This document shows, piece by piece, positions 8,790 through 47,132 of a DNA stretch of 64,000 bases (position 1 is the first letter of the stretch; each line of letters opens with the position of its first letter). The notes below the pieces were generated by a model. It saw nothing but the letters and a program-made list of their open reading frames with translations, was not told where the DNA came from and searched no databases. Source of the stretch: Labyrinthula sp. Ha. Its lineage: Eukaryota; Sar; Bigyra; Labyrinthulida; Labyrinthulaceae. The position numbers and the translations under genes are program-made. The stretch covers positions 1 through 64,000 of the forward strand of contig JAALGZ010000064.1 in NCBI GenBank assembly GCA_015227615.1. Direction: 5' to 3'.

Positions 8790-11700
8790 TTATAACTCAT
8801 TTCCAACAGTGAACCAATTCTTCCTCAAATTATTTTTCCGTCCAAATAGTTCCAAAAAACGAGTTTCCTTCTGACAACTGTTCTCTAACAACTCATATAA
8901 TTCCACTGGTTTTTGGGCGTTACCAGTTCTTTTACCATATAATATTTCTTTGCCCAATGATCTTGTAACTAAAACCTTCGGTAGCTCACCTTTGACCCCT
9001 AAAATGCACTCCTCCGTGCAACGCATTGTAAGGTTACCGAGTGTGGATAATATTTTATTGTGTCCATTTGTTTTTATCCAAATAAAACGTCCCATCATGC
9101 GAATTCCGTTTCGATGAAATAATTCTTGAACAATATTTTCCTTTCCTTTAATAACCCAAACGCAACAGAGGGTGTTATGCATCACTGCTTTCAAATTCAA
9201 CTTCAAGATCTCATCATCAGATAAAGTAGAGTAAGACACAGCTGGTCCTCTAACAGGATCCCCGGAGAACACTCTCCATGGGGGATCTACAATCAAAACA
9301 TCAAACTTCTTCTGCGTTTCAGTTAAAAAACATCTAACATCACCTTTGTAAAACCTCCCAACACCTTCTGTGTTCCAAATATAGGCCACACAGTTCAATT
9401 CCTTAAAATCCACTTTAACTAAGTTTGGTGTATCGCACTTTCTTACTTCATATTCTGCATTTCTCATTGGAAAAATATAATTCTCACATAAACTTTCTTT
9501 TACTTCTTCTAACTTTCCTTCAATATCTTTTTCTCTCTTTCTTAGATCACTCCAAAGTTGTTTCAGAAATAATAGAAAACTCTCTTTTCCTCCTACAAAC
9601 TTCGGAAAACAATCATCCAAACTACTATCTTCTTGTTTAACATATTCTAACATCATCTTAACTCCCTCCGTATTTGTTAAATTAAACACTTTCAATTTTT
9701 TTTCCTTTTCTTTCTTCAATTCTTCAAGGCTTTCTCCTAAATCCCTTTTCTGTAAGTTAAATAATAAAACTTCGTCAATCACCTCCCAGCCGACATCCGC
9801 TAGGTTCAAACTTGCTGGATGTCTAGGTGAGACATGAAGCATATCAACCGCTCTCCAAAAATCTAACTCTGTATCGCGACTGTTAGCTCTAGAAATAGCT
9901 TTACAAATAACTTCTAAATCAGCTTCAGTTTTATGGTATTTAGGGTTCAACCACCTCGATAAACAATCAGCTGGAATATTCTGGTAGCCGTCTAAATGAC
10001 AAGCTACCAGGTTTAATTCCATAAACTCCATTGCCCAACGATTTAATCTAGAAGTATGGGACTTTAACTTCGCTTCTCTTGGATTTAATATCTGAACCAA
10101 ATTCTTATGGTCAGTAAATAACACTTTCTCTTTAGCATTGTACTTTAAATAGTACGGAAACTTCTTGACTGCCATTAAAACAGGAAATAATTCTTTGCAC
10201 GAAATGTGCCAATTCAATGCTGATCCTACAAAACTTCCAGAGCTCATACCAATTACTCTGAAATTGCTTAGGAATGGATTCAATCTATCAACCTTCTCAG
10301 AAGTTTGCGAAATATATAAACTGTAAAATCTTTCACTTGCATCTGTGAATAAATGCACGTCTTCTTTTGGATCATAAAAACCAAGCGAATAACTCATAGA
10401 GTCTTTCAACGCTTGCATCATTTCTTCGTAAGTCCTCTCCATTTCTTCAGTCCAGTCAATGGGTACTCTTCTTCTCTCCAAATTCTTCATTTTACCTGTA
10501 ATTTTGTGACTCCCAAGTAACAGTTTTCTTATTTTTGAGAACCCCGGAATAGTCGCTGAAATGAAGTTCGCGGTATAAATAAGTTGAGCAAGTTCGTGTA
10601 AATAAGTAGGTTTTACTCTCTCCAACAACCCTTTAGCATAACTGTTGTCAAAGCTCCAACCATCCTTATTCACTTCACGACCGCAAAACGTCAACTTATC
10701 TGCTACCAACTCACATTTCTCCACATTTAAACGCAATTCCTTCTTCTGAATTTGTGTTAAAAACCTAGACGTATTATCATAGAGTTCTTCCATCGTACCC
10801 CCCATGATAATACTGTCGTCGATCCATTGCATGGCCTTCCTAGGCCAGAGGCCTGAAGGCATTAAAACTTCCTCAATTTGGCGCATAGAAAATAAACTAG
10901 GGGTATTGCACCACCCCTGTGGTGCCCCTAGGAAAGAATATGATACCCCCCATGGGGTTGTAAACGTGAAAAACTCACCAGCTTGCTCTTTGCAAGCTAA
11001 ATAATCAAAGCCAGAAAGTAAGTCAAATCCACAAAAATGCGCATTTCCTTTCACGCGATCCAATTGCAGCTCAATTTTTGGTAGCGTATTTGAAACTTTC
11101 TTCGTAACTCTGTTTAAAGGTCGAAAATCGACCACCAACCTAAAACGTTTAGGTCCCTTCTTGGGCACAACCAGCACACTCATTGCTGTTGTGGGATTTT
11201 TATTCACTTGAATAATACCAGCTTTAACCATATGATTGATCCGAGCGTGTAAGAAATCCTCTTGCTCTTGGCCTAGGGGTAGTTGTTTCTGAACGCCAAC
11301 TTGAGCCCCTTCAATTATATCACATCTTATCGGGATAATCTTCGACAGCTTCGTATAACTATTTGAATCCCCAAAGGTCTGAGCATGTTGCAAAAATAAC
11401 CCTGTGAACTTCCGTTTCCACGCTAAAGAATCATCAAAGTTGGCCACTGGTATATTCTCCAACTTCTCTCGAATAATATTCCTCATTCTTTCATTGTCTT
11501 TTTCAATATCAGTAACCTCTGCACCTGCTCCTAAATCAATGTTTTCAATGTCTAAAAACTCCTCCTCGTTGGGCCAATCCCAACCAAAAACTTGAGGAGG
11601 AATGTTTTTCTCGTTGCTCGGATATATTTCTTTTATCTCAATATCCCTCGCAGCTTCATCTTCCACACCAACGTTGCTAACAAACCATTTAGCAAAACTA

Positions 11701-13240
11701 GTTTTTGTCTTCCCCTTAACCTTCATCTTACTTTCCATGGCGCTAAGGGGGTCCAACCCGTAACGACACAGCACGTCGTTACCTATTATCAGGTCATCCC
11801 ATTCCGGCACTTCCAGGATTAGGACTTCAACCTCTTCAAAAACAAGTGGTTCCAACTCGGGTTTATCACTTTCCACCCACATTTTCCCAATAAATCCCAC
11901 TTCATGTACGGGGTATATAACACCCCCCGCGGCCTGTACTCTCACCGGCCTTCCCAACTGCTTAAGACCATCACATAGCTTCTTATGCTTGCTGTTAAGT
12001 GCACTTCTAAATGCTCCTGAGTCCAACAAACATTTAAGTTTCTTTCCAGATAAATATGAATCAACAAAAGCGTTATCCTTCACCGCTTTTATTTTATAAA
12101 AACCATCGTCGTGGAAAACTTTAGATGAACTTATAACACTCTTCACCTCATTAAGTTTCACACTTCCTATTTCAGTATCCTTCTTTCCACCAAAAAACTT
12201 ATTTGGACATCCACCAACAGCTCTAAACATCTTACTTCCGAAATACTCCTTAGCCATATCTTCCACTTTATCCTCTTCTTTCTTTATCGACGCAGACTTG
12301 GTCACCTCATACAACTTCTCCTTCTTCCTTTCTTTATATCTTGCTAACCTTCTCTGCATTTCATCTAAACCAGGATAAGGTAGTGCAGGCTTTCCTGCCT
12401 TCTTTTCATAACAGAATCTCTGCGTGTGCCCGTAAATCCAGTCGTGTTCACACAGCAGCTCGTTTCCTTTAGGCAACTGACCCTGATCTTTCGGCATCTG
12501 CGCAGACTTTATCTCATACTTCTGCTTCCGCGATGCAACCGGGTGTTGCTTTGTGGATTTAATCTTATCCGCACAAAAAACTTTAAACTCCTTTCTCACA
12601 TGTCTTGGAGGTATGCACGATAAAATATATTTCTTTAACTCTTGGCGATCAGCTTCCTCTAGTTCTGGTTTCAAATTTAAATCATCATAGCGTACCCAGA
12701 TGTGTTTGGGTAACAAATCAAATATAGCCTTAGCGATCTTCCTTGGCTTCCGTCTTGATTCAGGAGGTAGTAAAGAGAGAACTTCTTCTACTTCTTGGAA
12801 AAGAACTTCGACTGCCTCTTCCTCGTCCATCTCCTTCTTAAAAACGACCTGTTTCCTAATAAGGCCTTCAGCGCTTCCGGCATCTTCGACCTTCAATCTT
12901 ACTATCTTCTTCTTGATTGCATTAATTATTTCATCATTAGAACCCAAACACCTAAACATTCCATTTGCTTGTAAACTAGCTTCCCTAATTTCTGCCTCAG
13001 CATAACATACTTTCGCTGATCTTCGTTAATTCTTTCATATTGGTAAATAAACTTCTCCATGCTACGGAGTGTAAAACTTTCCAAGATAGATATCTCTGCT
13101 TGCATTCCTGCAAAGTTATTTAGCATCGCTTCCATTCTCCTCTGCGATTCTTCTTGTTGCTTCAATAAAATCTCCTCAAACATTTTCATGACCTGGGCCA
13201 TGTTAGGAGCTCTTTCACTCATATCTACTTCCCACTCCAA
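8790..13240 (-). CDS. Element A gag-protease-RT-RNase H-MT-A70 region
   Basis: The gag part begins at the ATG at 13240 and is homologous to the gag of element C. It has a zinc knuckle (LCEHDWIYGHTQRFC). The protease motif LLDSGAF is near 12020. Reverse transcriptase shows VVDFRPLN, FDLLSGFDYL and the catalytic WIDD near 10820. RNase H shows LFTDASERFYSLYI and FTDHKNL. A Lys/Glu-rich stretch follows, and then a domain of the MT-A70 family ends the protein: DPPW at 9276-9287, an SYSTLSDDEIL segment, FIWIKTNGHNK, and a C-terminal ELFGRKNNLRKNWFTVGNEL. These match the order of motifs in METTL3/IME4 proteins, where DPPW is the catalytic motif and the last segment helps bind S-adenosylmethionine. 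Whether its target is DNA or RNA cannot be read from the sequence. Confidence 0.9.
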
Positions 13241-13353
13241 AGTAGCTTCTCTTGAAAATAAATTGCCGTAAATCTTGAATAGCAGGTAAGCTTATTAATA
13301 AAACCTTCTTTAAAACCCAATAAAAAATATATGATGGTTCTTCCCTAAGTATA

Positions 13354-13369
13354 CAATATTGCAATATTG
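13354..13369. other. 16-bp perfect palindrome at the primer-site position of element A
   Basis: CAATATTGCAATATTG reads the same on both strands and straddles the inner edge of the 5' LTR, which begins at 13366. A TGG-type tRNA primer site would be expected here but is absent. Element C has almost the same sequence in the same place. Confidence 0.75.
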
Positions 13370-14126
13370 CGTTTATCGTCTTCCTGTAATTTACTCTTAA
13401 GACGTCCGCGGAAGAAAAAACCAATCACAAACACAACTTGGACCTTGTAAAAGACCTCAGATCCAATAAAATAGGGTTTCGCGTTAGATATAAACTCAAT
13501 AAACTTCCTTTTATAATTCACTAAAAAACTCTTTTTCTCTTTTTTTTTATCGCTTAACAGTTAGTAAAAAACGGAAATATATGTCAAATACTACTTTCAA
13601 CTTTCCTGAATATTGTATATTTCAACTCAGTTCCAACACCATATTATGCAGGATACCTATACCAAAATTCCCAAATGACCATGTCACCCCTCAATCGTAA
13701 CTAACGATATCTCGTTTTTAATTTATATCAACAAATGTCACCAAATGTAAATTCATAGGAGAAAAACATCGATGAACAAACCACCCTTTCATCTCATCAC
13801 GGGCGAATTTTATCACATAATACGAAAGAGAAAAGACTGTAAATTAGGTTCTCGATTTGACCAAATCAACTGTAACTCTTCGAAAACACTTCAGAATAAA
13901 CCAAAAACTTCACAATATCTTCGTATCATCTCATAAATTCATATTATACCAAAATTTCACTTGTATATCAACATTTACCAAAGTTTCTTTCACATCTTTA
14001 TTTCTTAGTAACATCAAGAACATCAAAGACAAGCATTTTTGGAATCAACCACCTGAGACACAGCTGAAACAAAACATATATCACAACTACATTAAACCAT
14101 AAGATATTTCACATAAAACCACAACA
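13366..14126 (-). repeat. 5' LTR of element A
   Basis: This 761-bp copy is the partner of 8006-8766. Its outer flank is the GTTAT duplication at 14127-14131. Confidence 0.92.
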
Positions 14127-14131
14127 GTTAT

Positions 14132-18546: not shown

Positions 18547-20088
18547 TTAGCTCAGGCTGTACACTTGTTTCTGAACAATTTTTTGGCCATCTGGTGTCTC
18601 AAACTCTTCCACAGCTTCAAACTCATTCTTAATTTGTCCCTCCAATTTGGAATACAACTTTCTAGCATTCTCAATTTTGATAATGTCATGAAAATGTCTT
18701 GTATTTGGTATTCTTAGAAGCTTCATTCCATTTGCATGTCGCCATTCTTGAAAGTGTTTATCAAAATTCTTTCTCCCTCTGTATGTAAAATTTCCACAAA
18801 TCTCGCACTCAAAACTTTCATGAAGACCTTCTAGTTTATACAACCAAAGTGGAACTGGTTCTCCATCTAATCCAACAAGCGCTTTTTTATTTGTTTTCTG
18901 TTTTTTAACTGCACGAACCGTTTCTTCAGCGGCATCTTGAGTTAAGTCATCAATAAAATTAAGAGAATGAAGTGCACGAAGTTCTCTTTCAGCTAAGAAG
19001 TTTTCTTCTTGATGTTCTTTAAAGGACATAGTTTCTTTCTTAGTAACTCTTTCTTTAGTTTTCGTTATTTTTCTACTCATTCCATCTTCTCGAACTACTT
19101 CTCTAATTATTTCTTCCAAGCAAAATAAATACAAAAAAGAAATATTTGTTTTCAGAATATTTTTTTAGGATACCGAAAGCTTTTCACTTTGAAATCTTTT
19201 AAATCTATTTTACTAAGCTCCAACATTTCTATTTTTTCATCCTCTTTCTCAATAGCAAGTTTTAATCTTTTTTCTTGATCTTCTTTTCTTCCTCCAACTT
19301 TTAAACTTCGTTTTTGGAGTTCAGTTTTTGTATTTTCAGAAACTATTTTAAAAGATCCAATATATTGAACAACTTTTTACTTTGCAACAGATTGAATATC
19401 AAGTTCAGCCAAAGGTTGAGTTCTATTGAAGAAATCAAGAAGATATTTTGCTAAATCCTCCAAATATTTCTTGTATCTCGTTGTGAATTTAACCTTGGAA
19501 TAATCGTAAGCTTCGAATACAATAAAAGAATCCAAAAAAGCAGAATAACTTACTTTTTCCTCTTTCATACTCGAATATTCGGAATAAAAAATTTGCAGAT
19601 CTAAACTTTGTCCATTAAATTCCTCAATAGAGAAAACAAGTTTTTCTGAAATTTTAAACTCGATTTTCTCAATTAAACTCTTTTCAATTTCAGAGATATT
19701 AACTTTTCTTATTTCTGACCCAGAATTCACCTGAGCGGTTATATAATTAGTATTTTTTATTGCATTATACTCTTCGTAGAATATTTGAGCATTTTGTTTT
19801 CGCTTTGATATCTCTAAAGATAAAAGTTTAGAATCAAATCCTTCCTTAATTTTTTCCTTTATTCTTAATGCTTCGTTCAAAGCTTCACTAAGAATTAAAC
19901 AAAGAAGAAAAATACTTGATAAAGTGTTCGTTTCGAAGATCCAATAATTGACTGCCAACAGCTTTTCGCTGAAGAGTTGTGTTTGCAGTTGTTATCTGTC
20001 TTAATCTTAGATTTGTTGTAATTAATTTCTCACATGCTTCAAGTTCTTCAATATTTCTTCGAAGTATTTCTAAGGCAGTTGATGACAT
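18547..20088 (-). CDS. SF3A3: SF3A3/Prp9-like splicing factor 3a subunit 3
   Basis: The C-terminal exon (to the TAA at 18547) contains the hallmark matrin-type zinc finger of this family: PVPLWLYKLEGL, then FECEICGNFTYRGRKNFDKH, then EWRHANGMKLLRIPN. In known SF3A3 this part belongs to the U2 snRNP SF3a complex that recognises the branch point. Exon 1 (20088-19916) gives an N-terminal helix, and a 28-nt intron (19888-19915) joins it in frame to exon 2 (EALNEALRIKEKI, ending LLDFFNRTQPLAELDI). A SAP-like segment (TELQKRSLKVGGRKEDQEKR) follows in the same frame but beyond an in-frame TAA near 19377. The junction to the last exon, about 19130-19190, also does not resolve into a clean GT..AG intron. 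Either small introns or base errors are unresolved, or this copy is disabled. The family assignment itself is firm. Confidence 0.85.
19888..19915 (-). other. 28-nt intron in the SF3A3-like gene
   Basis: On the minus strand it starts GTATTT, is pyrimidine-rich, and ends TTCTTAG. It interrupts a codon in phase 2. Removing it joins exon 1 to a conserved exon 2 in frame. Confidence 0.88.
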
Positions 20089-20239: not shown

Positions 20240-22770
20240 ATCTAAATTTTCCTTAACGATATTAAAATTAAGATGTCCTTAACACATCGTGAATTTTGCG
20301 GAAGTTGATGTTAAGAAAATTCTTACGATACTTTTTGGGTTTCTAAGATCATTTAACTATGTAATATTCTTCCAAAATCATATCTCCATAATGTTTTCTG
20401 CTTACTTTCTTACACTGAAATAATAAAATTGCAACAAAAGCTTACTCAGAACCAAATGCAACATATAATCAACATCGTTTCCAAGCTATTTGATATGAAA
20501 CTCTTCCTATGGCTACTAACTTTAGCCTTGAAATTGTCTAAGTCTCAGCTCAAAAATTTACTCCTAGAGAGTAGAAAAATAATCTAAATACCTTCTCTAC
20601 ATAGTTTTAAACAATTAATTCTAGTCTCTCAGAGAGAAGGAAACTGATAAAATAGAGGTAAAACCTTGGCGATAGTTAAAATATTTCCTAATCTTCATAG
20701 AGAAAAGTTCGTATCTTGGCTCAGACTTGATTTCAAAAAAAAAAGGAAAATTACCCCGTTTGAAGATTAGCTCAAATTACTTTATACCAATAAAAAGAAA
20801 TTAGCTTTGTGCAAAATTAACAACAAAATATGTGAGTCTTAACGTACAAAATCATGACAAGAAATTTCATATCAATACTTGACCCAGTTATAGTGATTTG
20901 TTTTAATAATTTGTTGCTATTTTATATCAAAAACATTATTAGGTGTATAAAATTCATTTTTTAATGTAGTATTTTAGTTGTATTTACGTTATATGGCATG
21001 TATATATGACACTAGAACTTGTCACTCATATATTTTTGAAAAATGTATTAATTTCATGTCATAATTTTGTTACAAGTATATTTCACTCAAATTAATCCTA
21101 CACATTTAGCATCGCCTATGAGATGAGTATTGAAAACAATGTTTGACCACCCACTTTTAAAGTTTGTAATAGTAGTAGTTTATCCAGCTATCATATTTAA
21201 TTCTTTTTGTGACAACCTGCATTTTGGTAGAGTTATTAAATAATTGTAGACCTTATTTATCAATGAAATTTTGTAGTTAAACAAATTGAAATAAAGTCTT
21301 TTAAAGTTATTCTAAATTACTTTCTAGCTAAATAAGATAATGTAGGATTTGAAAATTTTAATTTCATGTAGAATACCAAATACCACCAAAATATAGCCCA
21401 GTCTCTTTATATTGGCCAGAAAACAGTTAAGAAAAGATTATATAACCAATCAAATTTCTCAATGATGGCTCTTATATTCAAGTTACTACTTGTAGTAACC
21501 AATATTATTTTACAGTTTTTTACGGGCGTTTATAACTGTATCATTTTTTCAAAATGCAGTATACTGGCAACATACTCTAAAATACATTTTACGGTGCTCT
21601 CCAAACTTCAAGATGTATTGCAATTTTATTCTCGCACTTACCTAAATGAAAATTTATAGGATTAAAAAAACTGTAAAGAGACCATGGTTACTGAAAATAA
21701 TACAAATAGTGTTTGTTACCCTTTGTCACAAAATTTTCCTCAAATATAATATTGTCACGCCAATGTGTTTCAAATAAAAAAAAATTTCCAGGCATGTATT
21801 TTGTTAATTTATTTGATGAGAATGGGCACTTTAAACAATAAAAAAGGCTAATTTAAGGAGTCCTTTTCACTAAGTTTACAGATGTCTAAAAACCATACAT
21901 TCAAATGTAACAACACGAAAAACAGCTCTATAGTTGATATAATATTTCTCAAACCCTAATTATTCACTATATCTAATTTCTGAAATCGTTTCTCAGGATT
22001 TTTTTCTCTAGTTAGTTATAGCTGAGCTCAACTTCACTCAGAAAAGTTAAATGTTGAGTATCTACACATCTGAAAATACGAAATCACTCAGTTTTGCTAT
22101 AATCCACTAAATTTTTGCACTAAATAGCACCAAAAAACTAAATAGCACGACCTGTAACATTTAATTCTTTTTTTAGGGTATTTTTTTAAGAAAAGTTGAT
22201 ATTGGCCTAAAATACCGTTTTCTTCAATTTCAATCCGTTTAATATCTCCACAAATTCTGGTCTAAAGCTTAAGAATACCTTATCAGTTAAAAGAACGGGT
22301 TAATTTTGAGTTAGGGAAAATATTGCTTGAGAATTGGAGGATTCTGTATAGATTTCCTAACAGTGTATTCTTTTCCCCAAGATCTCAGAAACTCTGAAAA
22401 AGATACACTTAAATGTCAAATGTTCCTGAATAGGTAATAGCAAGCAATGAAAATTTAGCAATAATTGTCACTACCTTCAAGTATAGAGAAATTATAGTTT
22501 TTTTTTGGAATTTTTTCATCAAATTAAAAAAAAATCCCTGGTAGCCAAAACAATACTTATTTGGGGTAATGCAATATTGATATGTACTCTACTTTCGGGT
22601 AGTTAAGGCTGAGTCTCTAAATGATCAAAAGAAAAAAATATGACTCAAATTTTATCTGAGAGAAAATTTTGTAACCTAAAATAGAAACGGTTAAATTTTG
22701 ATGTTTTCAATTGTTTTTATTTTATAAATCTCTCTCATTGTATTTGAAGTAATTACATAAAAATATATGT
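20240..22770 (+). repeat. Dispersed non-coding repeat, copy 1
   Basis: By eye this about 2.5-kb segment aligns in the same direction with 49130-51690. Shared landmarks include CTAGAGAGTAGAAAAATA (about 20563 and 49431), ATACCACCAAAATATAG (about 21382 and 50247) and AAGATCTCAGAAACTCTGAA (about 22379 and 51280). The copies are clearly diverged and hold no long reading frame. It could be an old non-autonomous element or a segmental duplication. The ends are approximate. Confidence 0.7.
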
Positions 22771-29949: not shown

Positions 29950-31809
29950 TTGAACTAACAGCCACCGTACAAGAAGCGATTGAAAAGACTATTTGCCTTT
30001 AACTTCGCCCACTCCAGATTACCAAGATAGTCTCTCTAAGAGTTACGGGAGAAAGATGTCTAAGGTACAAGCTCGAAGTTAAGTGGATCAAACTTAGTGC
30101 TGCGAACAATACTTACCAAGATCTTGTTACACTTTATTAAGATTTACAACTTTTAGTAAGAAACCTTATATTTAACAAAGTTCAAGATGAAAATGTTAAG
30201 GATCATCTACTTCAACTTTTAAAGAAAATGAATAAAAAAAATGCGCCAAAAAAAAATAAAAAAAGGGGAAAACCTAAGAAGAAAAAAGTAATACGCTTTT
30301 TAAAGATGACTAACTTTAATTTACCGAACAGTGGCAACATAATCGGATGGTACGAGGAAGAAAAAACTATTTTACCAAAACTTACATTAAGACACAGATG
30401 GGGCAAGTATGATGACTATTTATCTTTACCGTATCTTCCCTTTCAGAGTAAGAAGTAAACTCAGCATATGCTAAATATTCAATTAATTAAGATTTTCCAT
30501 GGCTTATGTCTTGAAGTCAACTTTGCCCCGCGATTTCTAGAAGACGTTTTAGGAATCACATCATTTCATAAAAAGTTACTTGGAAAGTTCGATATATTGC
30601 AGGAAAAAACTAAAATACTCGAACAATTTAAGTCTCAAGTTTATTCCACGGCAAAACTTAGTTTAAATAAAGTAAGTTTTTTTGAAGGTTATCAAACCTT
30701 AAACATCTGGATCTAATTCAAGCAAAGCTGCATAATGAATATTTTTAAGACGTTTTATCAAGACATCAATTATCAAATACAGATATTCTCAACAAAGTTC
30801 AATACTATAGGGAAGATATTACAGATTATTTCAAGCAGAATGTTACCTTTCCAGATAAACTTTATTAACTTTGTTTAACGATGCAGAATACTGGGATTAT
30901 TTATCATAGTTTTAATGCACTCTAAGAAACGAATAATTCCAACTCAGTCTAACTTAATCTAGAGAACATTTATATTACTAGAACTGAAGAAAACTTTTCA
31001 TAATCTATGTTTTCATTCGAACATTTAATTCAGATCCAGTTCATGGACCTATTGAATAGGGACAAGCTCATTCTGGAGTATGAAGGTGGAAATCAGTATT
31101 TACTAGCTGAAACACCTCTAACTATATTCTTAGAGCCAACTTGTTCAAAACACATTGTATCTAGTGTATGTGATATTCCTTATTCGAAGAACGGTGCTAA
31201 GAATTACATTTTTGACCTAGTGGTCATGGATCCACCTTGACCAGCTGGATCTTCTAACCCAACTTGAAGGGTTAAGCTAGATTATCCTTTATTATCACTC
31301 AATCAAGTTTCTAAAATTCAATTGCTTTTAAGGCATTGTCTCTATGGTAACTATTTGTTTATCTGGGTTACGAATACTTCTTATTTATGAACTCTACGAT
31401 GGGCTAAGTCTCATAGCTTTTACCTAATCGACGAAATTACATAGATTAAAATTACTGACAACGATAAACGTCATCTTAGTATGTGCCATGTGTTTCAATA
31501 CAGTCAAGAAAAGTGTTTAGTGTTTATTCGTAAGTAACATCCTTAGGTCAATTACCAGGACGTATTCAATGAAGATTTTTCTAATGATTTTAAAACTACT
31601 ATTTAAAACGAAACCTACCTTCCCTTCGGTCAAGCATGGAAAATTTTATTTACTTTGGGAGAGAAGCTTTCCTTCAAGACGTAACATAGAGTTCATTGGT
31701 CGTACGAATAACATTTGTGCTAGTTGGACCACTACTGGACTAGAACTGGATGCTAATTGCCACGTAGTTTACACCCAATCTACACAAGACACCTCTTAAG
31801 GTGGGGGGA
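29950..31809 (+). mobile_element. Fossil D: 3' part of a B-like Ty3 element with chromodomain, SANT and MT-A70
   Basis: On the plus strand three decayed domains appear in the same order as in element B. First is a chromodomain-like stretch near 30.05-30.2 kb (YKLEVKWIKLSAANNTYQDL). Second is a SANT/Myb-like stretch near 30.34-30.47 kb (GWYEEEKTILPKL, WGKYDDYLSL). Third is an MT-A70 domain from about 31.0 to 31.75 kb (FDLVVMDPP, LFIWVTNTS, and a final FIGRTNNICASWTTTGLELD). A G-rich tract (GGTGGGGGGA) at 31801-31809 sits where the polypurine tract of element B lies and probably marks the start of an LTR. The region is broken in many places and is old. Gag and reverse transcriptase are not recognisable here. 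Confidence 0.75.
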
Positions 31810-32018: not shown

Positions 32019-34730
32019 TTAGACTTCAGTTCGGTAGACTGTAATCACATCAAAATCAGAGCTTGATAACGGTATTTCAGCCTTAATTCGATCAATAACT
32101 TGAATAAGCCAAGCCCTATTTTCCCCTTGCACTATTGTAAGCCCAATAACCTTTTCTTCTCTTAAAATAAGATCTACAATAACTTCGGTACCAAATATAA
32201 ATCTTGCAAATCCCATGTAAAGCAGATGATCGGTGAGACCTTCTTCCTTTTGAAAAAGTGTAGTAAGTTTGACAAATAGTGCTGCACTTACAGGAGTCTG
32301 AAAAACCAACTCAATATCAGTAACCTTTGATGGTTGTATCTTTGTTCCCATCAAAACAGGAATTAGCTCTGGAACAATGAACATATCCTTTTCAATTTCT
32401 ACAGGGATTAAAACAAGACTTCTTATTGCAACTTGCAGAACGTAAGTTCTTTCCGCTTCAGTATATTCTCTTAGTAGAATATCAAAAAGTTCTCTACTAA
32501 TCTTTCCACTATCAACATATCTTCTGTATAGATGAAAGTTATTGCTACGCATTCGAAAAGCAAGTTCATGAAAACTTGGATCCCGGATGAACTTACCTAA
32601 CGCCTGAGCAAGATAAGAAGGAGCAAAAAATATGAAGTTTTGATAGTCATTAAGATCCAAGTTAGGGAGATAACAAATTAATCCAGCTTTTGAGTAGACT
32701 TCCAACATGCCATCAATTTCCTCAAGATCAAATCCGCAACGAGAAGCAGTAGTGCCAAATTGTTTAACACTCATTAAATTAGCCTCTTCTCTGCAACTAT
32801 CAAGGAAGAGTACCCAAGATGTTAACACAGCAAAATTAAGAAAACCCTGTTGTACTAAACCTGCAGAACCAGAAACAACCCTTCGAAAAAGTCTTTTAAT
32901 GATTTTAACCTCACGTGAATTATGTTGGGAATTATCAATAGGAAAAAAGATACACGATTTCGACTTCAAGAGATATAGTTTTGCAGAAAGAGAACTCGTA
33001 CACTGTACAATTTTATTATGTATATTATGGAGATTTTGATCCTCAATAAACTTTCGCTTGTATTTTTGTAGAAACGTTCCAACCAGAATAACCTTTGCCT
33101 TTGGAGCATTTTGTAGAATACTCTCACACCAGAACTTTAACCTTTGTAAATCTCCTTTTGAAGTTTTCACCATATTGAAAACAACAAAATATAGTGCGTT
33201 TGAATTCAAAAAAATTGGATGCACAGATGAAAAAATTTGTTGCCCCCCAAAATCGGAGACACGAAAGTAAACATCTGCAGTAGAAAATCCATAAGTATTT
33301 GTTTTCATCCCTTCAACAAATTTATCATCGCTAATTGTTCTATAGAGGAGTTCCTCTTCAAAATCAAGTTTGTATTTTGTACTAAACTCTTTTGTAAGAT
33401 CTAGTTCACCATTAAACGTTTTCGGAAGAATATTTTTAACCCTCTGAACACTCAACTCATATTTTGAGAGTGAAGCCCATTCATAGTTATTTGGATTAAC
33501 TGAAAATATATCTATATCATTAAGAACCAAAGTTGAATCGTTGTTAATCCTAAACCGTTTCTTGAACAAATTTCTAATAGTAGAGGTCTTTCCTACTCTT
33601 CCATCACCCAAGAACAAAACTTGACATTCATTAAGTGTTTGGTACTCACCATATAGGCAATGTAACATTATTTTCACATAACCATGCAACTTTTTCTTTA
33701 GAATACTTTCATTAAGAACATTTTTCGTGCAAACCTCAAATAAAACAAGTGAAGGATGGGTATCAACTAGAGCCTGAATTTCAGTAAATTTTTCTTCCTG
33801 AAAAGTCACCATGTCGACGCGCAAACTAAAGGTTTAAACACAACAAAGATGAACATATATTGCACCAAAGAAGGTAGATCGCGTAAGCATAACTTTGTTA
33901 AACGAGCAAGCCTCTCACTTTCCACAACTAAACCCTGTTGCTCAATACTGAAACTAATGTCAAGAATAATAAGTACGTAATAGAAGACAGTGTTGTCATT
34001 CTAGATATTTCATCTAGCACATGAAGTGCACCATTCGAGGTAAAAGTATTTTCGTTGAGCCTAATATAACAATATATACATATTTACATTATGATTCTCA
34101 GTTTTTGCCCTTTTAGAAAGAGAACAAAAGAATCATCACCTGGAACATTACACCGTAACAAACTAAATGATGAGAGAAGGAAAGCTTTACCTTAATGAAT
34201 CCACTTTCCATTGTTTCTTAGTATCATTTAGTGAATAGAAGTTTAGGCTATTTAGGTTGGTATATTGGAAGCTTTAGTAAAATAAGAGAATAAGAATACC
34301 TCAGTTCTCTTAAATTAGGAAACCTTTCAATAAAACTAGAGAGCACAGGGCCTAGAATATCCAGAGGGCAAACAAAAAAGCTAAAAATTATTTGAAAATA
34401 ACATAATAACGTAAGAAAAATAACTTGGTTATTTATCTGTTGTCGGGTTAAGAACAATTCTACCTCCTTCCTAAATACTTCCTCTTCTATAGGGCGGTAA
34501 TTATCATCATGCGACCTAGGATTAAGAAAAAACTGAGGAAACCATTGTAAAATGAAATGACCAGATCCTTTACTGCTTTCGAATTGTTTTTCGATGGATG
34601 GTGCTTTGAAAGGCATTACACAAATTTCTGGTGATCCTTCTCCTCGGGTTCGTTTTTTTTCTTTTCCGAGTGTTTTACTCCACTTGATTTGTTTCGTTAA
34701 ATCGTATTTTGGGCAATTAACAATTTGCAT
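32019..34730 (-). CDS. Roco protein: LRR-Roc-COR GTPase
   Basis: The last exon (33825-32019) holds a Roc GTPase domain with P-loop GDGRVGKTS and switch II DFGGQQIF, then a COR region to the TAA at 32019. The upstream exons are joined by five GT..AG introns of 27-29 nt, all phase 2. The six exons total 2571 nt, exactly 857 codons, starting at the ATG at 34730. Exons 2-5 (81, 75, 84, 93 nt) each encode about one leucine-rich repeat, and every junction falls at the same repeat position (NLREL/S, KVDSL/S, KLRII/M, TLSSI/T, SLVQY/I). LRR, then Roc, then COR is the standard Roco order. Known Roco proteins are dimeric GTPases in signalling; I see no kinase domain after COR here. A sixth in-frame 30-nt intron at 34381-34410 is possible. 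Confidence 0.88.
33826..33854 (-). other. 29-nt intron 5 of the Roco gene
   Basis: It starts GTTCAT and ends CCTTTAG on the minus strand, phase 2. It joins the last LRR exon to the Roc-COR exon. Confidence 0.82.
33948..33976 (-). other. 29-nt intron 4 of the Roco gene
   Basis: It starts GTACTT and ends GTTTCAG, phase 2. An earlier TAG six bases upstream would not keep the frame. Confidence 0.8.
34061..34087 (-). other. 27-nt intron 3 of the Roco gene
   Basis: It starts GTAAAT and ends TATTAG, phase 2. It removes an immediate in-frame stop. Confidence 0.83.
34163..34190 (-). other. 28-nt intron 2 of the Roco gene
   Basis: It starts GTAAAG and ends CATTTAG with a pyrimidine-rich middle, phase 2. 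It removes an immediate in-frame stop. Confidence 0.85.
34272..34299 (-). other. 28-nt intron 1 of the Roco gene
   Basis: It starts GTATTC and ends TTTTACTAAAG, so a TACTAA-like branch motif lies right by the acceptor. Phase 2. Removing it continues the leucine-rich repeat begun by NLREL. Confidence 0.85.
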
Positions 34731-40097: not shown

Positions 40098-40101
40098 CTA
40101 G

Positions 40102-40228
40102 TGATGTAAGCCGTTATAATATTGTAGCTCGATTGTAATATATACGTTAGAGAGTCTTAAGAGATAATTTGAAATACAGAAGTTACAAAGTTTACAAATA
40201 TTCATAAGACCCTTTGGACTATAAATCA
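40102..40228 (+). repeat. 5' LTR of element B
   Basis: 127 bp, beginning TGATGTAAG and ending AAATCA, identical by eye to 47157-47283. This is very short for a Ty3-type LTR. Confidence 0.93.
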
Positions 40229-40240
40229 TTGTTCGAACAA
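40229..40240. other. 12-bp palindrome directly inside the 5' LTR of element B
   Basis: TTGTTCGAACAA is self-complementary and starts at the first base after the LTR, where a primer site should lie. Its core also resembles the T-arm of tRNAs (GTTCGAAC), so priming from an internal tRNA segment is an alternative to fold-back. Confidence 0.7.
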
Positions 40241-40398
40241 CGTTCCCTATAGCCGGAGGACGTATATTTACATATTTTTAGGCAAATACAAACACGAAGA
40301 GATACACACGATCATCGTCAAGAGCAACTAAGGACTTCATCTTTGCGTCCCTGTCACCAAGAAGGAAAAGAAAGCCTATAAGAGTTCATAAAAAGAAA

Positions 40399-42071
40399 GT
40401 GATGGAGCAAGAAGACACTCACACTCCAGAGGAAAGCTCTCCCACAGCAGCTAGACAGTTACCTGATCCTTCGTCCCCGACCTCTCCTAGGGACGATACA
40501 CAGTTTCAAAGGTACTTTTTGCAGCCACATCCAGCTCCGCTGATGCCGCCCCCGTTTCTGCGCTCCTTGAAGCCAGAGGATGTGATATCTTTTCTTCATA
40601 GTTTCCACAATGCTGACGCTGCGGTCAGGATTAGTGGGGGACAACCTCTCAGCATCCAGCCATATATCGACGGACGTGTGATCAGAAAGTTAAAAGAAGC
40701 CAAGGGATATAGCACCTCTGCTGAAACCCTCAAAGAACTTAACAATATAGTTGAAGACTACGATAGAAGCAAAAAGAAGATGCTCTACACATCCTGGACA
40801 GCAAACTCGCTTGGGATTTAACGGAGCCTACTGAAGAAAGAAGGGTGAACGCATACATAGACACCATATTGGAAATAATGAACGTAGAAGATTTGAAGAG
40901 TGACAAGAAGATGGAGACCAAGGCAGTGAAACTGGCCCTTAAAAATTTACCCAGTAAGTATGAATTGGAGCCGTCGGACCATGATAGATTAAAAAGCCTA
41001 CTCTCAAACGCAAGAGCAAAGATTTTATCAGCCGATGAAATAGAATTATTGGAGGCGGGTGAAAGAAACATGAAGGGAAAAGGTGGCGCTCCAATCACAC
41101 ACGAGAAGATTAACAACCTGAAGAAGCTCCTTATTTACAAAGCCTCAGTGTTGAGAGATACGAAGAGGGAGGCAGAAGACCTTCACGGTTTGGATAGGAA
41201 AAAGAATAGAGCAGTTTTGAAAGTGGCTGATGGATTAACTCATAACACAGCTGAGCAACTTGTGGCCACACTTGCGAACCTTTTATCTCCGAAACCAACT
41301 ACGACGCCACACAGCTACGTAAATGCGGTCAGGAACACACAGGGCACGACGTTTCCTTCTTCAAGCGCGTTAGATTTAAATAGTCCTCTGAAAGCTCAAG
41401 GAAATCCTCCTGCGAACATCGTCTGTTATTTCTGCGGCGGCGATGGACACAGGGTTAGCGAATGCGTGACGCTAAAGAACATCAACATGGAGAGAGCGGC
41501 AAAGGGTCTATCCCCAGCGTATGTACCCAGATTCAATAGAAGACAAGGAGATAGAGGCTATGCGAACACTAGAAGACCAAGCTTCAAGTCCCCTTCAAAA
41601 GAACGCCGCGCGCTGCCGGACATTATGATCAAGAACTTCGATGGAATGAATGGGGCAAGGCTTAATGCACAGAAGGCTCAAGTGGAACTCTTCTCTCCAG
41701 ACCTCAAGTGGATCCCTGTTAAAGGTGCATTGGACTCTGGCGCCGGGATGACAGTGGGCGGAGTCAAAGCTCATGGAAACTTCTGCACGAACTTGGAAAC
41801 TTTAAGGAACGATAGACACGTAGTGCTCCCGAATGGATCCCGGATCCCGGTATCTATGCAGGGATATGTGGAAGCACGAGCTAAGCATGGAAGTGGAAAA
41901 GTGAACACGTTCAATCGCCTGAGGGTATTCCTTTTAGATTTAGACGACTGGGATTGGTTTCTTATAGGTTTCCCAGAGTTAGCTGCGTTACAGGCCACGC
42001 CGGATCAAATACTTGCTCAGGTAGCTGTTATGCCAAAGCCCTCACTGAGAGATTACGTAAATGGAAAATAG
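40399..42071 (+). CDS. Element B gag and protease region
   Basis: A proline-rich N-terminal part is followed by a helical capsid-like stretch and a zinc knuckle of CCHC type (CYFCGGDGHRVSEC) near 41430. It ends in an aspartic-protease-like segment with GALDSGAGMTVGG near 41735 and a hydrophobic LDDWDWFLIGFPEL motif. This is the usual gag-protease content of a Ty3-type element: particle core and maturation protease. Confidence 0.85.
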
Positions 42072-42074
42072 GAA

Positions 42075-45000
42075 GTGGGCCTAGGGAAGGAGGCCTACCG
42101 CGTTCTTCCTTGGGAGCCACCAGTTTATGATGTAGCGGTGGATAAGACGGGACCAACTGCCGGCGAATCTACTAATTTACTTAACGATGATAGCTGGGAA
42201 AGATTCAAGAAGTCTATTTGTCCACCTCTGGAAGAATACAATATGGATAACAATGAAGTCTTCAGCGAAAAGGCGAGGATGTTAGGCGCCTTTATTGTAG
42301 AGGATGATATCTACGAACCAGAAACTATATTTGCCATTCGAGCATCAGACAATATGAAGAAAATGGAGCTCAAGAATAAATCTAACGACGATAAGATAAA
42401 AGAGTTCCAAGAGTTAAACCACGCGGAGAACGACCCAGTATTTATAGATTCGATAGAAAGAGATGTTAATGTGCATTTAAAGAAAGAGCAAGGATTTGGC
42501 GAGAATATCGACTTAAGAAGCGAGGAAGAAGAAAAACTATTTTTAGAAAGGGATGAGCAAGACGTTCTCAAAGCAATCGATGCAAAGATACAGGAAATAT
42601 CAGGATTAGATGAAGGTAGGCTTTCCCAGCTGAAGGACACCCTCCTCAGAAATAGCAGAGCTTTTGGATTGAAGTCTTCACCAGCAAGAATGTCGAGGAT
42701 GGACCCGATCATCTGCTTCCTGAAGGACGAAAAGGCAGAGATCATATCACAGCCTCGTTGGATGGGTCTTCATAAGATGGAAGTTTTAAGAAATAAGCTC
42801 AAGTCAATGGTGGATCGCGAACTTATTAGACCAACAAAGAATCCTATGTATGGATCTCCTGCATTTTTAGTCCCAAAACCTGGTAGACCAGGAGAATGGA
42901 GAATGGTGGTGGATATGAAGCTCCTTAACTCACACACGAGGAAGACGCCGCTTATTATGCCGAATCTTGAACAGCAGGTTTCATTCACAAAGGGCGCAAC
43001 CGTTTTTGGATCCTTTGACATCCTCAGTGGCTTTGACTATTTGCCCGTGGCGGAAAACTCCAGAAAATATTTCACGATTGTCACCTACTTCGGCTGCTAT
43101 GAAATGTGCGGCTCGCCACAAGGATGGGTCAATACTCCACAACTTTTCCAGAACAGAATGCTGACAGATATTTTGAGACCGCTGGATTTATTTGCTAAGA
43201 CATCTAATGGCGTCATCCAGTGGATAGACGACACGCTACTCTTCTCAGAGAGCTTCGAGAAATATATCTTGCTTTTGGATGCTTTCCTCAACAAGTTGAC
43301 GCAGCTAAACTTGAGGTTGAATATATCAAAGTGCAGCTTTTATGATACGGAAGCCATATGGTGCGGCAGGACGATAAATAGATTTGGATGGAGATTCAGC
43401 GAAAAATACTACAATAAGATTTTGGAAACTCCGAGACCTACATTTGCGCATGAACTCGCCCAGGTTTTATATCTCTGCAATTGGCTAGGACCGAGTATTC
43501 CACGTTTAGCTGAACTTAGGGACTTCTTCTCTCCGATGCTCCCAGCGGAAAGATCAATGAAAGAGCTCAAGAAAATGAATATTACACTTGAATGGAACCC
43601 AGAATTGGAATTAAGATGGGAGGAATTATTGAAAGAATTGAACGAATCCTCGAAAAGGAACATGGCACAGTATTCCAAAGAGATGAACCTGTGCGTATTT
43701 ATGGACGCTTCTATATATTTCTGGGCATTTATTCTTACTTCCTGTGAAAACGCGAACCCCGCAGATGACGATTGTAAAGTCGCTTTAGAAGATCAAGTAC
43801 ACTCTCCTTTATTTTTCTTGAGTGGTAAATTCCAAGGGCCGCAGATAGGCTGGCACATTAGCGCCAAGGAATTATACCCTTTAGTCCATGTGTTCAAGAG
43901 ACTTCCTTATTTGATCCTCGGCCAAGATAAAAGACTCACCGTATTTACTGATCACAGGAATTTAATCTTCATTTTGCACCCTGAATGGAACCCGAAGACT
44001 GCTTATTTGGATAGATTATATAGGTGGAGTTTATTATTTCAACAGGTGGATATGACAGTCCGTCATATTCCGGGCAAGAAAAACGTTCTAGCAGATCTAG
44101 TATCGAGATGGGGAAACCCTGGATATCCCCAGCATTTAGAATCTATTGACTCAGGAAAGACAAACTCTTTAGGTATAGTTGCTACGCTCTCGGGAGGCAC
44201 GTTCAACGAAAAAGAACTGGATAAAGGTAGGATTAGTTTTCTAAATCCGTATTATATTCACAGCTGGGAAAAGATTAGTTATTCTGATGTGTTAGAAGCT
44301 CAGAAGGAGGCGAATATAGTATCTGCAGACTCAGTGGAAAGAGATTTAAAGTATAAAAATGGAAAACTCATAATACCAACATCGTTGGTGATAAAGCTAA
44401 TGCTTCATAATCACCTCGCTAACAACCACGCCTCGATTAAAGAAGAAGAAAGAACATTGCAATCATTCAAGTTAAAGCTCCCAAAAGGAACTACCACGCT
44501 GGATCTTATCAAAAGGATAAGAAATAACTGCCTGCACTGCGGAGTTAAATCGAAGCTTATAAGGAGAAGTTTGAACATGAGTCCACTTAGCAAGATCCCG
44601 AGGGAGATCATTCATGCGGACTTTTTATATATCAACAAGTTTACACACTACTTAGTGTTAACAGATAACGCCACGAGAAAGATCTATTTAAGGCATTGTA
44701 CGTCAGATACCGCTGAAATCGTGGCCACTGCTCTTCTAGAATTTGTTGGAAACTTTCAATTGCTCGAAAATTTTACTTTATACACTGACAACGGCAGCTA
44801 CTTCGCAGGGAGAGTGTTAGAGGAGATCAGTAAACTACTCAAGTTTACCAGGAGTTTTTCAGTACAGTTTGCTCCTTGGACGAACGGGACAGCTGAGATA
44901 AGCAACTCGAAGATAATTCGGGTAATTAGATCACTAAGAAGCGAATTTAGATTATATGAGGAAGAAATTGGAAAGTTAACTGGAGTTATTATGAACGTTA

Positions 45001-47132
45001 TAAACAACTCACCTTCCACAATTAAAGCAGGGTATAGCCCGAATGAGTTATTTTTAAATACCAGAGTCCTTAATGGTATTGAAATGCTTTTGGATGAGGA
45101 CACAATATATGTTCCGATGAAAAATGAAGTGAGACGACCCAAGAATATTGATACAGTAATAAATAAATGCTTGGAGATAAGGCGGTTATGGGAGTCCAAG
45201 TTAAATGAGGCATATGAATTAACGAAACTTCGAAGAGATAAACAGAACAATAGAATGAATGACAGATTCAGGCCAAGTACGCTGCAATTTATGCCCTCCG
45301 AATGGGTACTATGCAGCAAAGCTGGAACTTTGGCGGCACGAGACAAAACGAAACCGATCTGGATTGGGCCATATAAGGTGATCAAGTCAATCCACAGGAA
45401 CACTTATCTCGTAACCGATTTATTAGGCAAGGACATGATTGTGCACGCTTCGAGGCTATGGCCATATGCTCCCCCTGAATTCGAACCAGCGGAACAGCTA
45501 GTTAAACTATTTCAAGTGGACAAAGCAGATCTTGAGGTAGAAAAATTGTTAGACGTGCAGTTTGAACAACGTCAATGGTGGCTTTTGGTTAAATGGTATG
45601 GATTTGATGAGGCTGATAACTCGTGGGAACCCCTATCCCCTTTAGCTGAGGATATTCCCGAAGTGGTTGAAGATTTTCTGTTAGAAATGAACACTAAGAA
45701 TTCTAAAAGAGCCTTGAAGAAGTTTTACTCGCTAACGAAAAAGAAAGCTAGTCACAGTATAAAGGCACTCTTTGAAGGTAACCCAAACTATCCTACACGG
45801 TCACCTGGATGGTTACCGATTGAAAAACAAATCCTCAGGATCCTGATTGCCAAGTTTGGTTGTGGAAATTGGAGTGAAATGATGGCACAAAATGCTTTAC
45901 CAGGGAAAAACAAGCAGCAATTAATAACTCAAGCTCAGAAGATACTATTTCGTCAAGCTATTGTCGCATACAAAGGCATACATTTGGATATTTATAGGGT
46001 TGGTAAAGCGAACAGATCTCTTTCAGATAAATATATTGTGAACAAGACCCCTTATTTAGATGAGTTCAAGCTTTTAAGATGGTGCTTCAACGCGATAAGA
46101 TTCACTTTGGACGACGATATATTACTGAATCTCAAGATACCTTTTTTCAGGAGGGGGAAAGATTTATTTACTATAGAAGTTCTTCGAAATCTAGAGGCAA
46201 TTGAGGAATTTGATGATTTTTATCCACATGCGGGATCATATGAAGAAACGCTCTCCTGGGTATGGTTTGGATATGAAGTAAATAGAGCTCTCAAAGGAGA
46301 TGAAGAACAAGTCATCAGGTGGTATAATGAAAATAAGAAGGACATCTTGGAGCGTTTCAAGAATAACTTACCAGAAAACACAAAGTTGGTGCAAGGTTTG
46401 GAAATGGACTTCGATCAGTTTCATTTTACCTTTTCCCTTAGGGACAGGAACATATATGAGGTAGAGGCCAGAAATGAACGTGACGTCAGGAGAGCCACAT
46501 TGTATTACGTTCCAGATGAAGCAAGAGTGCTTAACGCAGATGTTCTTCACCCAGATTTCAAAATGATATATACTGAATTTATGACTATCTCTCCAACAGT
46601 TATCATAATGGATCCGCCTTGGAAAATTGGATCTAAGGAGCCTACGCGTGGTGGCTCTTTAAACTACCACTGCTTTTCGGACAAAGACCTCCTTACTTTT
46701 GATTTTTCTTACTTTCAATCAACGGGATTTTTGTTACTATGGATCGTAAACTCTAAAAGGCATATAGCCGAGAAAATGATATCGACAAATGGCTATAAAA
46801 TACTGGACTCAGTGGTATGGGTCAAAGTTAGTAAACAAAACAAATTACAAATTGGGCCTGGATACTATTTAAGGCACGCATCAGAAATATGCTTGTTATG
46901 TGGTAAAGGCAACTACCGATCACTGATGTCGCATGGTCAGGTAGTAAATGTAATGTTTGAGCAACGAAGAAATCACTCTCAGAAGCCAGATGCTATATAC
47001 GAGTTGGCTATGAAGTTGGTGCCCAAAGGACCTTATCTGGATGTTTTCGCACGCTTCTCCAATGTCCGCAGCCATTGGAGTTCAATAGGGTTAGAAGTTA
47101 CGCCATCCCTTACAGGTGCCCATTTCAACTAA
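42075..47132 (+). CDS. Element B pol with chromodomain, SANT and MT-A70
   Basis: One open frame of about 1685 residues. Reverse transcriptase motifs are WRMVVDMKLLN near residue 276, FDILSGFDYL and the catalytic WIDD near 383. RNase H starts near 540 (CVFMDASIYFW) and includes FTDHRNL. The integrase zinc-binding part (HNHLANNH, CLHC) lies near 776-820. The D,D,E core has HADF near 846, YTDNG near 902 and GTAEIS near 939. A chromodomain follows near 1150-1205 (WLLVKWYGFDEADNSWEPLS), then a SANT/Myb-like domain near 1245-1297 (KFGCGNWSEM, LPGKNKQQ). An MT-A70 domain fills the last 180 residues, with the catalytic MDPPW near 1512 and a final QKPDAIYELAMKLVPKG segment. Chromodomains are known to guide Ty3-type integration to modified histones; a methyltransferase at this place is not something I know from the family. 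Confidence 0.93.
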   Translation: MGLGKEAYRVLPWEPPVYDVAVDKTGPTAGESTNLLNDDSWERFKKSICPPLEEYNMDNNEVFSEKARMLGAFIVEDDIYEPETIFAIRASDNMKKMELKNKSNDDKIKEFQELNHAENDPVFIDSIERDVNVHLKKEQGFGENIDLRSEEEEKLFLERDEQDVLKAIDAKIQEISGLDEGRLSQLKDTLLRNSRAFGLKSSPARMSRMDPIICFLKDEKAEIISQPRWMGLHKMEVLRNKLKSMVDRELIRPTKNPMYGSPAFLVPKPGRPGEWRMVVDMKLLNSHTRKTPLIMPNLEQQVSFTKGATVFGSFDILSGFDYLPVAENSRKYFTIVTYFGCYEMCGSPQGWVNTPQLFQNRMLTDILRPLDLFAKTSNGVIQWIDDTLLFSESFEKYILLLDAFLNKLTQLNLRLNISKCSFYDTEAIWCGRTINRFGWRFSEKYYNKILETPRPTFAHELAQVLYLCNWLGPSIPRLAELRDFFSPMLPAERSMKELKKMNITLEWNPELELRWEELLKELNESSKRNMAQYSKEMNLCVFMDASIYFWAFILTSCENANPADDDCKVALEDQVHSPLFFLSGKFQGPQIGWHISAKELYPLVHVFKRLPYLILGQDKRLTVFTDHRNLIFILHPEWNPKTAYLDRLYRWSLLFQQVDMTVRHIPGKKNVLADLVSRWGNPGYPQHLESIDSGKTNSLGIVATLSGGTFNEKELDKGRISFLNPYYIHSWEKISYSDVLEAQKEANIVSADSVERDLKYKNGKLIIPTSLVIKLMLHNHLANNHASIKEEERTLQSFKLKLPKGTTTLDLIKRIRNNCLHCGVKSKLIRRSLNMSPLSKIPREIIHADFLYINKFTHYLVLTDNATRKIYLRHCTSDTAEIVATALLEFVGNFQLLENFTLYTDNGSYFAGRVLEEISKLLKFTRSFSVQFAPWTNGTAEISNSKIIRVIRSLRSEFRLYEEEIGKLTGVIMNVINNSPSTIKAGYSPNELFLNTRVLNGIEMLLDEDTIYVPMKNEVRRPKNIDTVINKCLEIRRLWESKLNEAYELTKLRRDKQNNRMNDRFRPSTLQFMPSEWVLCSKAGTLAARDKTKPIWIGPYKVIKSIHRNTYLVTDLLGKDMIVHASRLWPYAPPEFEPAEQLVKLFQVDKADLEVEKLLDVQFEQRQWWLLVKWYGFDEADNSWEPLSPLAEDIPEVVEDFLLEMNTKNSKRALKKFYSLTKKKASHSIKALFEGNPNYPTRSPGWLPIEKQILRILIAKFGCGNWSEMMAQNALPGKNKQQLITQAQKILFRQAIVAYKGIHLDIYRVGKANRSLSDKYIVNKTPYLDEFKLLRWCFNAIRFTLDDDILLNLKIPFFRRGKDLFTIEVLRNLEAIEEFDDFYPHAGSYEETLSWVWFGYEVNRALKGDEEQVIRWYNENKKDILERFKNNLPENTKLVQGLEMDFDQFHFTFSLRDRNIYEVEARNERDVRRATLYYVPDEARVLNADVLHPDFKMIYTEFMTISPTVIIMDPPWKIGSKEPTRGGSLNYHCFSDKDLLTFDFSYFQSTGFLLLWIVNSKRHIAEKMISTNGYKILDSVVWVKVSKQNKLQIGPGYYLRHASEICLLCGKGNYRSLMSHGQVVNVMFEQRRNHSQKPDAIYELAMKLVPKGPYLDVFARFSNVRSHWSSIGLEVTPSLTGAHFN

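Follow-up and report, generated by a model that had tools for sequence, protein, structure and literature searches.

Ty3-type retrotransposons of Labyrinthula sp. Ha are predicted to carry relatives of MTA1 and p1, two subunits of a DNA N6-adenine methyltransferase complex

Retroelements that encode a DNA methyltransferase are known from several lineages. Cytosine DNA methyltransferases (DNMTs) have been described in long interspersed nuclear elements (LINEs), DIRS and Gypsy elements, and Dam-like adenine enzymes are cited for DIRS elements, while MT-A70 enzymes go unmentioned in the excerpt of that paper on which we draw (PMC5890265; all papers cited here are used in excerpt). MT-A70 enzymes include MTA1/AMT1, and AMT1-linked N6-methyladenine (6mA) lies at symmetric ApT sites on active genes (PMC12695648). 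The ciliate enzyme is a complex of MTA1, p1, p2 and MTA9, with the helix-turn-helix of p1 modelled in the minor groove (PMC9174199), and the complex of Rhizopus microsporus is described as Mta1, Mta9 and P1 (PMC13297926). We here analyse the first 64 kb of contig JAALGZ010000064.1 of Labyrinthula sp. Ha (64,000 nucleotides, hereafter the window; assembly GCA_015227615.1), in which five copies, A to E, of a Ty3-like retrotransposon encoding an MT-A70 domain had been predicted from the letters alone, and we searched the whole genome (50.84 Mb, 153 contigs). By homology, a Ty3-type lineage has acquired relatives of MTA1/AMT1 and p1, two components of the DNA 6mA complex, fused at the C-terminus of pol.

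The methyltransferase is tied to the elements most clearly in A and B, where MT-A70 and reverse transcriptase (RT) share one open frame. The Pfam MT-A70 profile (PF05063) matches the pol of A and B significantly, as the original prediction expected, at E-values of 3.9e-28 and 1.2e-27, and C at 1.2e-6 (99.0, 97.4 and 29.1 bits, respectively, against a curated cut-off of 23.9). All three elements are bounded by long terminal repeats (LTRs) and by target-site duplications (TSDs) of 4 bp. A 4-bp flank match is expected by chance with a probability of about 0.006 per fixed position; since, to make the TSDs match, the LTR boundaries that blastn gave for A and C were shifted by 1-2 bases, the joint chance exceeds the cube of this value, yet is still small. 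In B, the purine tract GAGAGGGGGAA stands just 5′ of the 3′ LTR. The domain was found in all five predicted copies and lies between LTRs in A, B and C, but D and E are only broken pieces; D in particular does not hold up as a full element copy, since neither an RT match (tblastn) nor an LTR pair of at least 100 bases among the repeats listed was found around it.

The pol of B reads, from its matches, in the order RT-RNase H-integrase-chromodomain-p1-MTA1. In a comparison with solved protein chains, the best relatives of its RT-RNase H-integrase part are Ty3-G pol (E 4.1e-27) and Ty3 RT (E 2.4e-25), although the integrase core, at 32.2 bits, falls short of the Pfam cut-off of 32.6 and the integrase C-terminus is likewise under its cut-off. 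The order RT-RNase H-integrase is present in B (Pfam), and C has RT followed by integrase (tblastn); the RT of C is 53% identical to that of A. Neither Pfam nor tblastn gave an integrase, chromodomain or p1 match in A. The bit score of A recurs exactly at four places elsewhere in the genome, in open frames of 2107, 1285, 421 and 412 amino acids, so that A probably belongs to a longer family and has suffered an internal deletion. In the gag-protease frame of B, the CCHC knuckle is matched by Pfam zf-CCHC at E 0.0033, below the curated cut-off. This frame and pol are in register, separated by a single TAG (42069-42071) followed by G. This TAG may serve read-through or be the result of a mutation.

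With regard to its kind, the domain had originally been likened to METTL3/IME4-type proteins, a placement rejected by the solved-chain E-values. The domain of A matches Tetrahymena MTA1 at 5.7e-35, METTL3 at 9e-21, METTL14 at 2e-13 and a chain that we take to be METTL4-type (its record title reads methyltransferase-like protein 2) at 5e-4. For the C-terminal region of B the values are 8.5e-42 for MTA1 and 1e-19 for METTL3, and for L001, a copy elsewhere in the genome, 8.5e-38 and 1.8e-30. Because human METTL3, used as a yardstick, itself reaches 1e-34 on MTA1 across families, the telling point is the lead of MTA1 over METTL3 in A, B and L001, which amounts to 14 orders of magnitude for A and 22 for B; METTL14 and METTL4-type chains likewise trail MTA1 in all three. 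Judged by homology within a comparison that covered MTA1, METTL3, METTL14 and METTL4-type chains, the element domain is of the MTA1/AMT1 kind, that of the ciliate DNA N6-adenine methyltransferase, and not METTL3-like. With regard to the helical arm by which MTA1 binds p1 and p2, the alignment of B to MTA1 runs from about residue 128 on and is weak ahead of the methyltransferase. The domain is 26-34% identical among the families represented by A, B, L001 and P0006, a protein from the database search described below. A tree, which the original prediction had proposed as a means of placing the domain, was built from 13 sequences; its deep nodes are too weak to place the domain, A and C form long branches, and it is compatible with either a single or a repeated capture. 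A structure prediction for residues 1140-1686 of B, made with five sequences, was poor (mean predicted local distance difference test score 47.7) and was set aside.

The p1-like domain ahead of the methyltransferase is an addition to the original prediction. Among solved chains, p1 chains are the sole matches at E <=1 to the stretch of B between chromodomain and methyltransferase, in which no Pfam family is found at E <=1; the corresponding region of C matches the Pfam Myb domain at E 1.4e-4. A profile built from B, C and the database proteins P0006, P0007 and P0009 matches p1 at E 1.2e-18 over p1 residues 15-142 (about 128 residues), extending past the helix-turn-helix, as compared with 3.1e-7 for c-Myb, the best other Myb protein, and 0.18 for p2. 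A generic Myb domain, considered for the B stretch, was dropped on account of this difference and of the p1 chains standing alone. We regard the stretch, on the strength of these alignments, as homologous to the p1 subunit, MTA1's DNA-binding partner. The p1-like domain precedes MT-A70 in B, C and D (tblastn), and L001 has a p1 match (E 3.4e-16) with MTA1 behind it.

Whether the captured enzyme works can be approached through its residues. We inspected 14 positions, comprising the S-adenosylmethionine (SAM)-binding residues named by PMC9174199, minus N-terminal ones without side-chain alignment, plus the catalytic DPPW. A is identical to Tetrahymena MTA1 at 14/14 of these SAM and catalytic positions, and B, P0006, P0007 and P0009 keep D182, D209, N360, DPPW, K334 and R357. 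Loss of D182, D209 or N360 abolishes activity of the Tetrahymena complex, MTA1c (PMC9174199). Of the copies in the window, only A and B retain DPPW, as had been noted originally for these two; C has lost D182 and DPPW, reading DLPF, and has a stop inside the domain, and D reads DPP followed by a stop, with a frame shift in the domain. The enzyme is probably active in intact copies, to judge from the kept SAM and DPPW residues and, in the family of L001 described next, from purifying selection.

A PF05063 profile search of the genome gave 354 candidates, of which 150 were scored; all 150 exceed the cut-off, and the genome thus has at least 150 MT-A70 matches, counted in or outside elements. Internal stops are present in 26 of those scored and absent from 124, and 53 lie in an open frame of at least 1000 amino acids. 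In seven of the eight best-scoring loci (L001-L008, not a random sample), namely L001-L007, p1 lies upstream of the methyltransferase domain. These seven form a separate multi-copy family with DPAW in place of DPPW, and L001 also has N at position 182. The ratio of non-synonymous to synonymous change (dN/dS) was computed for six copies in 15 pairs, L006 being left out for its broken frame, L005 entering as a 335-amino-acid part and L002 and L007 as their open parts. In the seven within-subfamily pairs it is 0.09-0.23 in the methyltransferase domain, with small counts per pair (3-7 non-synonymous and 6-15 synonymous changes), and 0.07-0.28 upstream; in the eight between-subfamily pairs synonymous change is saturated, and dN in the methyltransferase domain is 0.185-0.193. 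The domain is under purifying selection in the L001-L007 family, the only one covered. Low dN/dS in spite of DPAW may point to a non-catalytic role in L001-L007, perhaps an MTA9-like one. L008 is different, its nucleotides 1027-2004 encoding a domain 58% identical to Tetrahymena MTA1 (E 1.4e-72), with neither p1 nor RT matched inside its 3.5-kb locus. It is likely, from its similarity, a host AMT1 gene outside elements, and the host therefore probably has 6mA.

Three further observations were made in these loci. A protease-like stretch with a DSGA motif lies between p1 and MT-A70 at nucleotides 853-1143 of L001 and in the same region of L003, behind the chromodomain and not in the usual gag-pol place; the motif was read in both loci, and Pfam gives an E-value for it (0.0075, under the cut-off) in L001 only. 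A leucyl/phenylalanyl-tRNA protein transferase domain (E 2.7e-13) adjoins the element at L001 2694-3497, in a eukaryotic genome. L003 has p1-like sequence once more at 2922-3197, downstream of its first p1-methyltransferase unit, as if another element copy followed.

Among 5.8 billion database proteins, relatives were also found by a search that reaches only those sharing 5-residue words and gives no measure of rarity. Under the source eukprot, P0005 is the B protein itself (100%), in a gene set that may derive from the same assembly; P0007, P0008, P0010 and P0011 are close to B, P0006, from a family only distantly related (25%), has the domain order of B, and P0013 and P0014 are pol proteins with a chromodomain and no MT-A70 listed. 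B and P0007 are 79% identical in the methyltransferase domain, 82% in an integrase part, 83% in the chromodomain and 68% in p1. Under the source lgn, P0012 is a lone MT-A70 protein of 182 amino acids, and P0009, on a contig of 2238 bases, has an integrase C-terminus, a chromodomain, a p1-like stretch and MT-A70. We take lgn, a label that the database does not explain, to be a metagenomic assembly, and P0009 to come from another organism. No relatives turned up in the viral contigs searched.

Our favoured explanation is that the p1-MTA1 fusion in Ty3 pol writes 6mA at integration, and taken as a whole we give it an even chance of being right. The p1-MTA1 module would remain with integrase in the integration complex, where the new complementary DNA (cDNA) or the target DNA would be gripped by p1 and integrase, and the MTA1 part would methylate adenines in it, probably in ApT by analogy with MTA1. 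The new copy would then begin life with 6mA, a mark of active genes in AMT1-bearing eukaryotes, which a host AMT1-like enzyme could keep up, and the gain to the element could be transcription, escape from silencing, or escape from an attack on unmarked cDNA. That the element in this way provides itself with an epigenetic state that is heritable and activating, its 6mA arm marking each new copy and host AMT1 maintaining the mark through replication, is a possible extension about which we are doubtful. Methylation by the elements is a sequence-based prediction, and several observations speak against it. No p2 or MTA9 chain matched the C-terminal region of B (45549-47129) at E <=1, and in Tetrahymena MTA1-MTA9-p1 without p2 is nearly inactive, MTA1-p1-p2 is weak and robust activity needs all four subunits (PMC9174199); the host may supply p2 and MTA9. 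The position of N359 is occupied by S in B and P0007 and by H in P0009, as it also is in METTL3, and that of N370 by L in B, P0006, P0007 and P0009, and in MTA1c the substitutions N359A and N370A lower activity (PMC9174199), which speaks against full competence of these enzymes. The family with measured dN/dS is the one with DPAW. A keeps an open methyltransferase domain though it has no p1 or integrase match. Finally, in the species covered by PMC12695648, 6mA shows no enrichment on transposable elements.

The strongest of the other explanations takes the p1-MTA1 module to be a targeting or tethering device, which binds the host AMT1 complex, MTA9 or adenine-methylated linker DNA close to promoters and so directs integration to these places, catalysis being secondary or absent. 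Other Ty3 elements carry targeting domains in the place that this module occupies, directly behind integrase and chromodomain, and the DPAW family is under purifying selection; MTA1, moreover, depends on partners (PMC9174199). However, A, B, P0006, P0007 and P0009 retain DPPW and all three essential SAM residues, for which a tether would have no need, and the domain persists in A, where neither integrase nor p1 is matched. Tethering explains the DPAW family better than does 6mA writing at integration, and the kept SAM pocket of the others worse, and we consider it rather unlikely. The original prediction had left open whether DNA or RNA would be marked. An enzyme writing N6-methyladenine on the element's genomic RNA, with effects on packaging, translation or escape from RNA surveillance, would suit retroelements, which go through RNA, and METTL3 is within the MT-A70 family. 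Yet A, B and L001 are closer to MTA1 than to METTL3, the fusion partner is a relative of a DNA-binding subunit, the Pfam families that A and B show at E <=0.01 include no CCCH zinc finger, and MTA1c has no or weak activity on RNA (PMC9174199). Given the lead of MTA1 over METTL3 and the fused p1 from a DNA-methylating complex, the DNA side of that alternative is favoured, and an RNA mark appears improbable.

The domain could also be a mere passenger, a host gene that was captured, has no function at present and is carried along because it does little harm. Such decay is seen in the 26 of 150 scored matches with a stop and in the broken C, D and E; against this, dN/dS in the methyltransferase domain of L001-L007 is far under 1 (if from small counts), and the domain has been kept across families as divergent as those of A, B, P0006 and L001 and in P0009 from another source, which leaves the passenger explanation very unlikely. 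As to host AMT1 genes merely adjoining elements, or an artefact of assembly, the AMT1-like L008 does lack element parts in its locus, but in A and B a single unbroken frame joins RT and MT-A70, enclosed by LTRs and TSDs, and the eukprot set contains the B protein too, perhaps from the same assembly. A host gene beside the elements is rejected for A and B, where the original placement of MT-A70 inside Ty3-type LTRs stands, and we give this explanation next to no credence. The features discussed are located in Table 1.

Table 1. Coordinates, in the window, of the elements, their predicted domains and neighbouring features
Feature	Position	Strand	Basis and remarks
Element A	8005-14126	-	LTR to LTR; TSD GTTA both sides
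A LTR pair	8005-8766 / 13365-14126		3 mismatches and 2 gap columns over 763 columns
A pol, 1411 aa	8790-13025	-	Weak protease, RT, RNase H, MT-A70 (Pfam, tblastn)
A putative MTA1-like methyltransferase	8796-9305	-	PF05063; MTA1 chain 7f4r_A E 5.7e-35; DPPW kept
Element B	40102-47283	+	127-bp LTRs; repeat search and blastn of ends; TSD CTAG both sides
B LTR pair	40102-40228 / 47157-47283		Identical, 127/127 bp (blastn)
B gag-protease frame	40767-42071	+	Weak CCHC knuckle at residues 219-233; DSGA protease motif (by eye)
B pol, 1686 aa	42072-47132	+	RVT_1 42870-43367, RNase H 43686-44045, integrase core 44598-44864, integrase C-terminus, chromodomain, p1-like, MTA1-like (Pfam and solved-chain comparison)
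B chromodomain	45534-45677	+	PF00385 E 1.6e-7, above cut-off; CBX3 chain E 5e-4
B putative p1-like DNA-binding domain	45786-46028	+	p1 chain 7f4l_E E 2.6e-10
B putative MTA1-like methyltransferase	46359-47096	+	MTA1 chain 7f4l_C E 8.5e-42; DPPW kept; PF05063 at residues 1509-1675 of the open reading frame
Element C	54189-61229	-	Broken copy, relative of A; TSD AGCT
C LTR pair	54189-54416 / 61002-61229		4 mismatches over 228
C domains	RT 57327-58832, integrase 56081-57191, p1-like 55416-55820, MT-A70 54447-55106	-	tblastn, Pfam
D	30288-31778	+	Relic: p1-like piece 30288-30641, frame-shifted MT-A70 31025-31778 (tblastn)
E	63470-63991	-	MT-A70 relic in two frames, close to window end (tblastn)
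Copia-type element	4-4851		119-bp LTRs 98.3% identical; one 1506-aa frame (RVT_2, weak integrase core)
Likely host genes between elements	18550-19991, 32022-33833, 47607-48968		SF3a60/Prp9 splicing factor pieces, Roc/Ras GTPase, protein kinase
Dispersed repeat, 138 bases	22000-22137, 50886-51023		84% identical; kind unassigned

The window also holds a Copia-type element, in which the Pfam scan gave no MT-A70, together with likely host genes and a dispersed repeat.

In the literature searched, the coverage of which was thin for subscription journals and preprints, we found no retrotransposon with an MT-A70 domain, in agreement with the original prediction, which knew of no described Ty3-type element of this sort. 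A 2016 review by Iyer, Zhang and Aravind reportedly treats eukaryotic adenine methyltransferases. A survey of 231 eukaryotes calls the MT-A70 families "relatively static" and, in the excerpt used, mentions retrotransposons once, in another connection (PMC12695648); yet here such a family has multiplied in a parasite. What is not found described in the literature searched is the enzyme class and the capture of two subunits, methyltransferase-bearing retroelements themselves being known. The use that retroelements make of their cytosine methyltransferases is unsettled, and the enzyme of the present elements is related to writers of the other DNA mark, 6mA on active genes at ApT, which is opposite in sense to silencing. 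Elements carrying relatives of MTA1 and p1 may be able to mark DNA epigenetically on their own.

Set beside described systems, these elements share the RT-RNase H-integrase-chromodomain order with chromodomain Ty3/gypsy elements (chromoviruses and others), to which the p1-MTA1 module is an extra. With KnitGypsy-Dnmt3 and SymbioDIRS/SymbioLINE-Dnmt they have in common a DNA methyltransferase captured by a retrotransposon, which in the Gypsy case lies in pol and is under purifying selection; those enzymes are cytosine DNMTs, whereas here an N6-adenine MT-A70 enzyme is predicted together with a DNA-binding partner (PMC5890265). The DIRS elements with Dam-like enzymes likewise have a retroelement adenine methyltransferase, but of bacterial Dam type and in elements with a tyrosine recombinase (cited in PMC5890265). 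Sola1-1_Ec32 of Ectocarpus also joins DNA-binding (ParB-like) and N4C/N6A methyltransferase domains in a transposon protein, but it is a DNA transposon with a transposase, the protein comes from a separate gene and its domains are of prokaryote type (PMC12477816). The closest counterpart is MTA1c of Tetrahymena, with the Mta1-Mta9-P1 complex of Rhizopus, with which the elements share a catalytic domain with DPPW and the essential SAM residues (A and B) and a p1 homologue (B and C). In those complexes the subunits are separate proteins, whereas in the elements two of them appear fused in one chain, behind integrase and chromodomain, on a mobile element.

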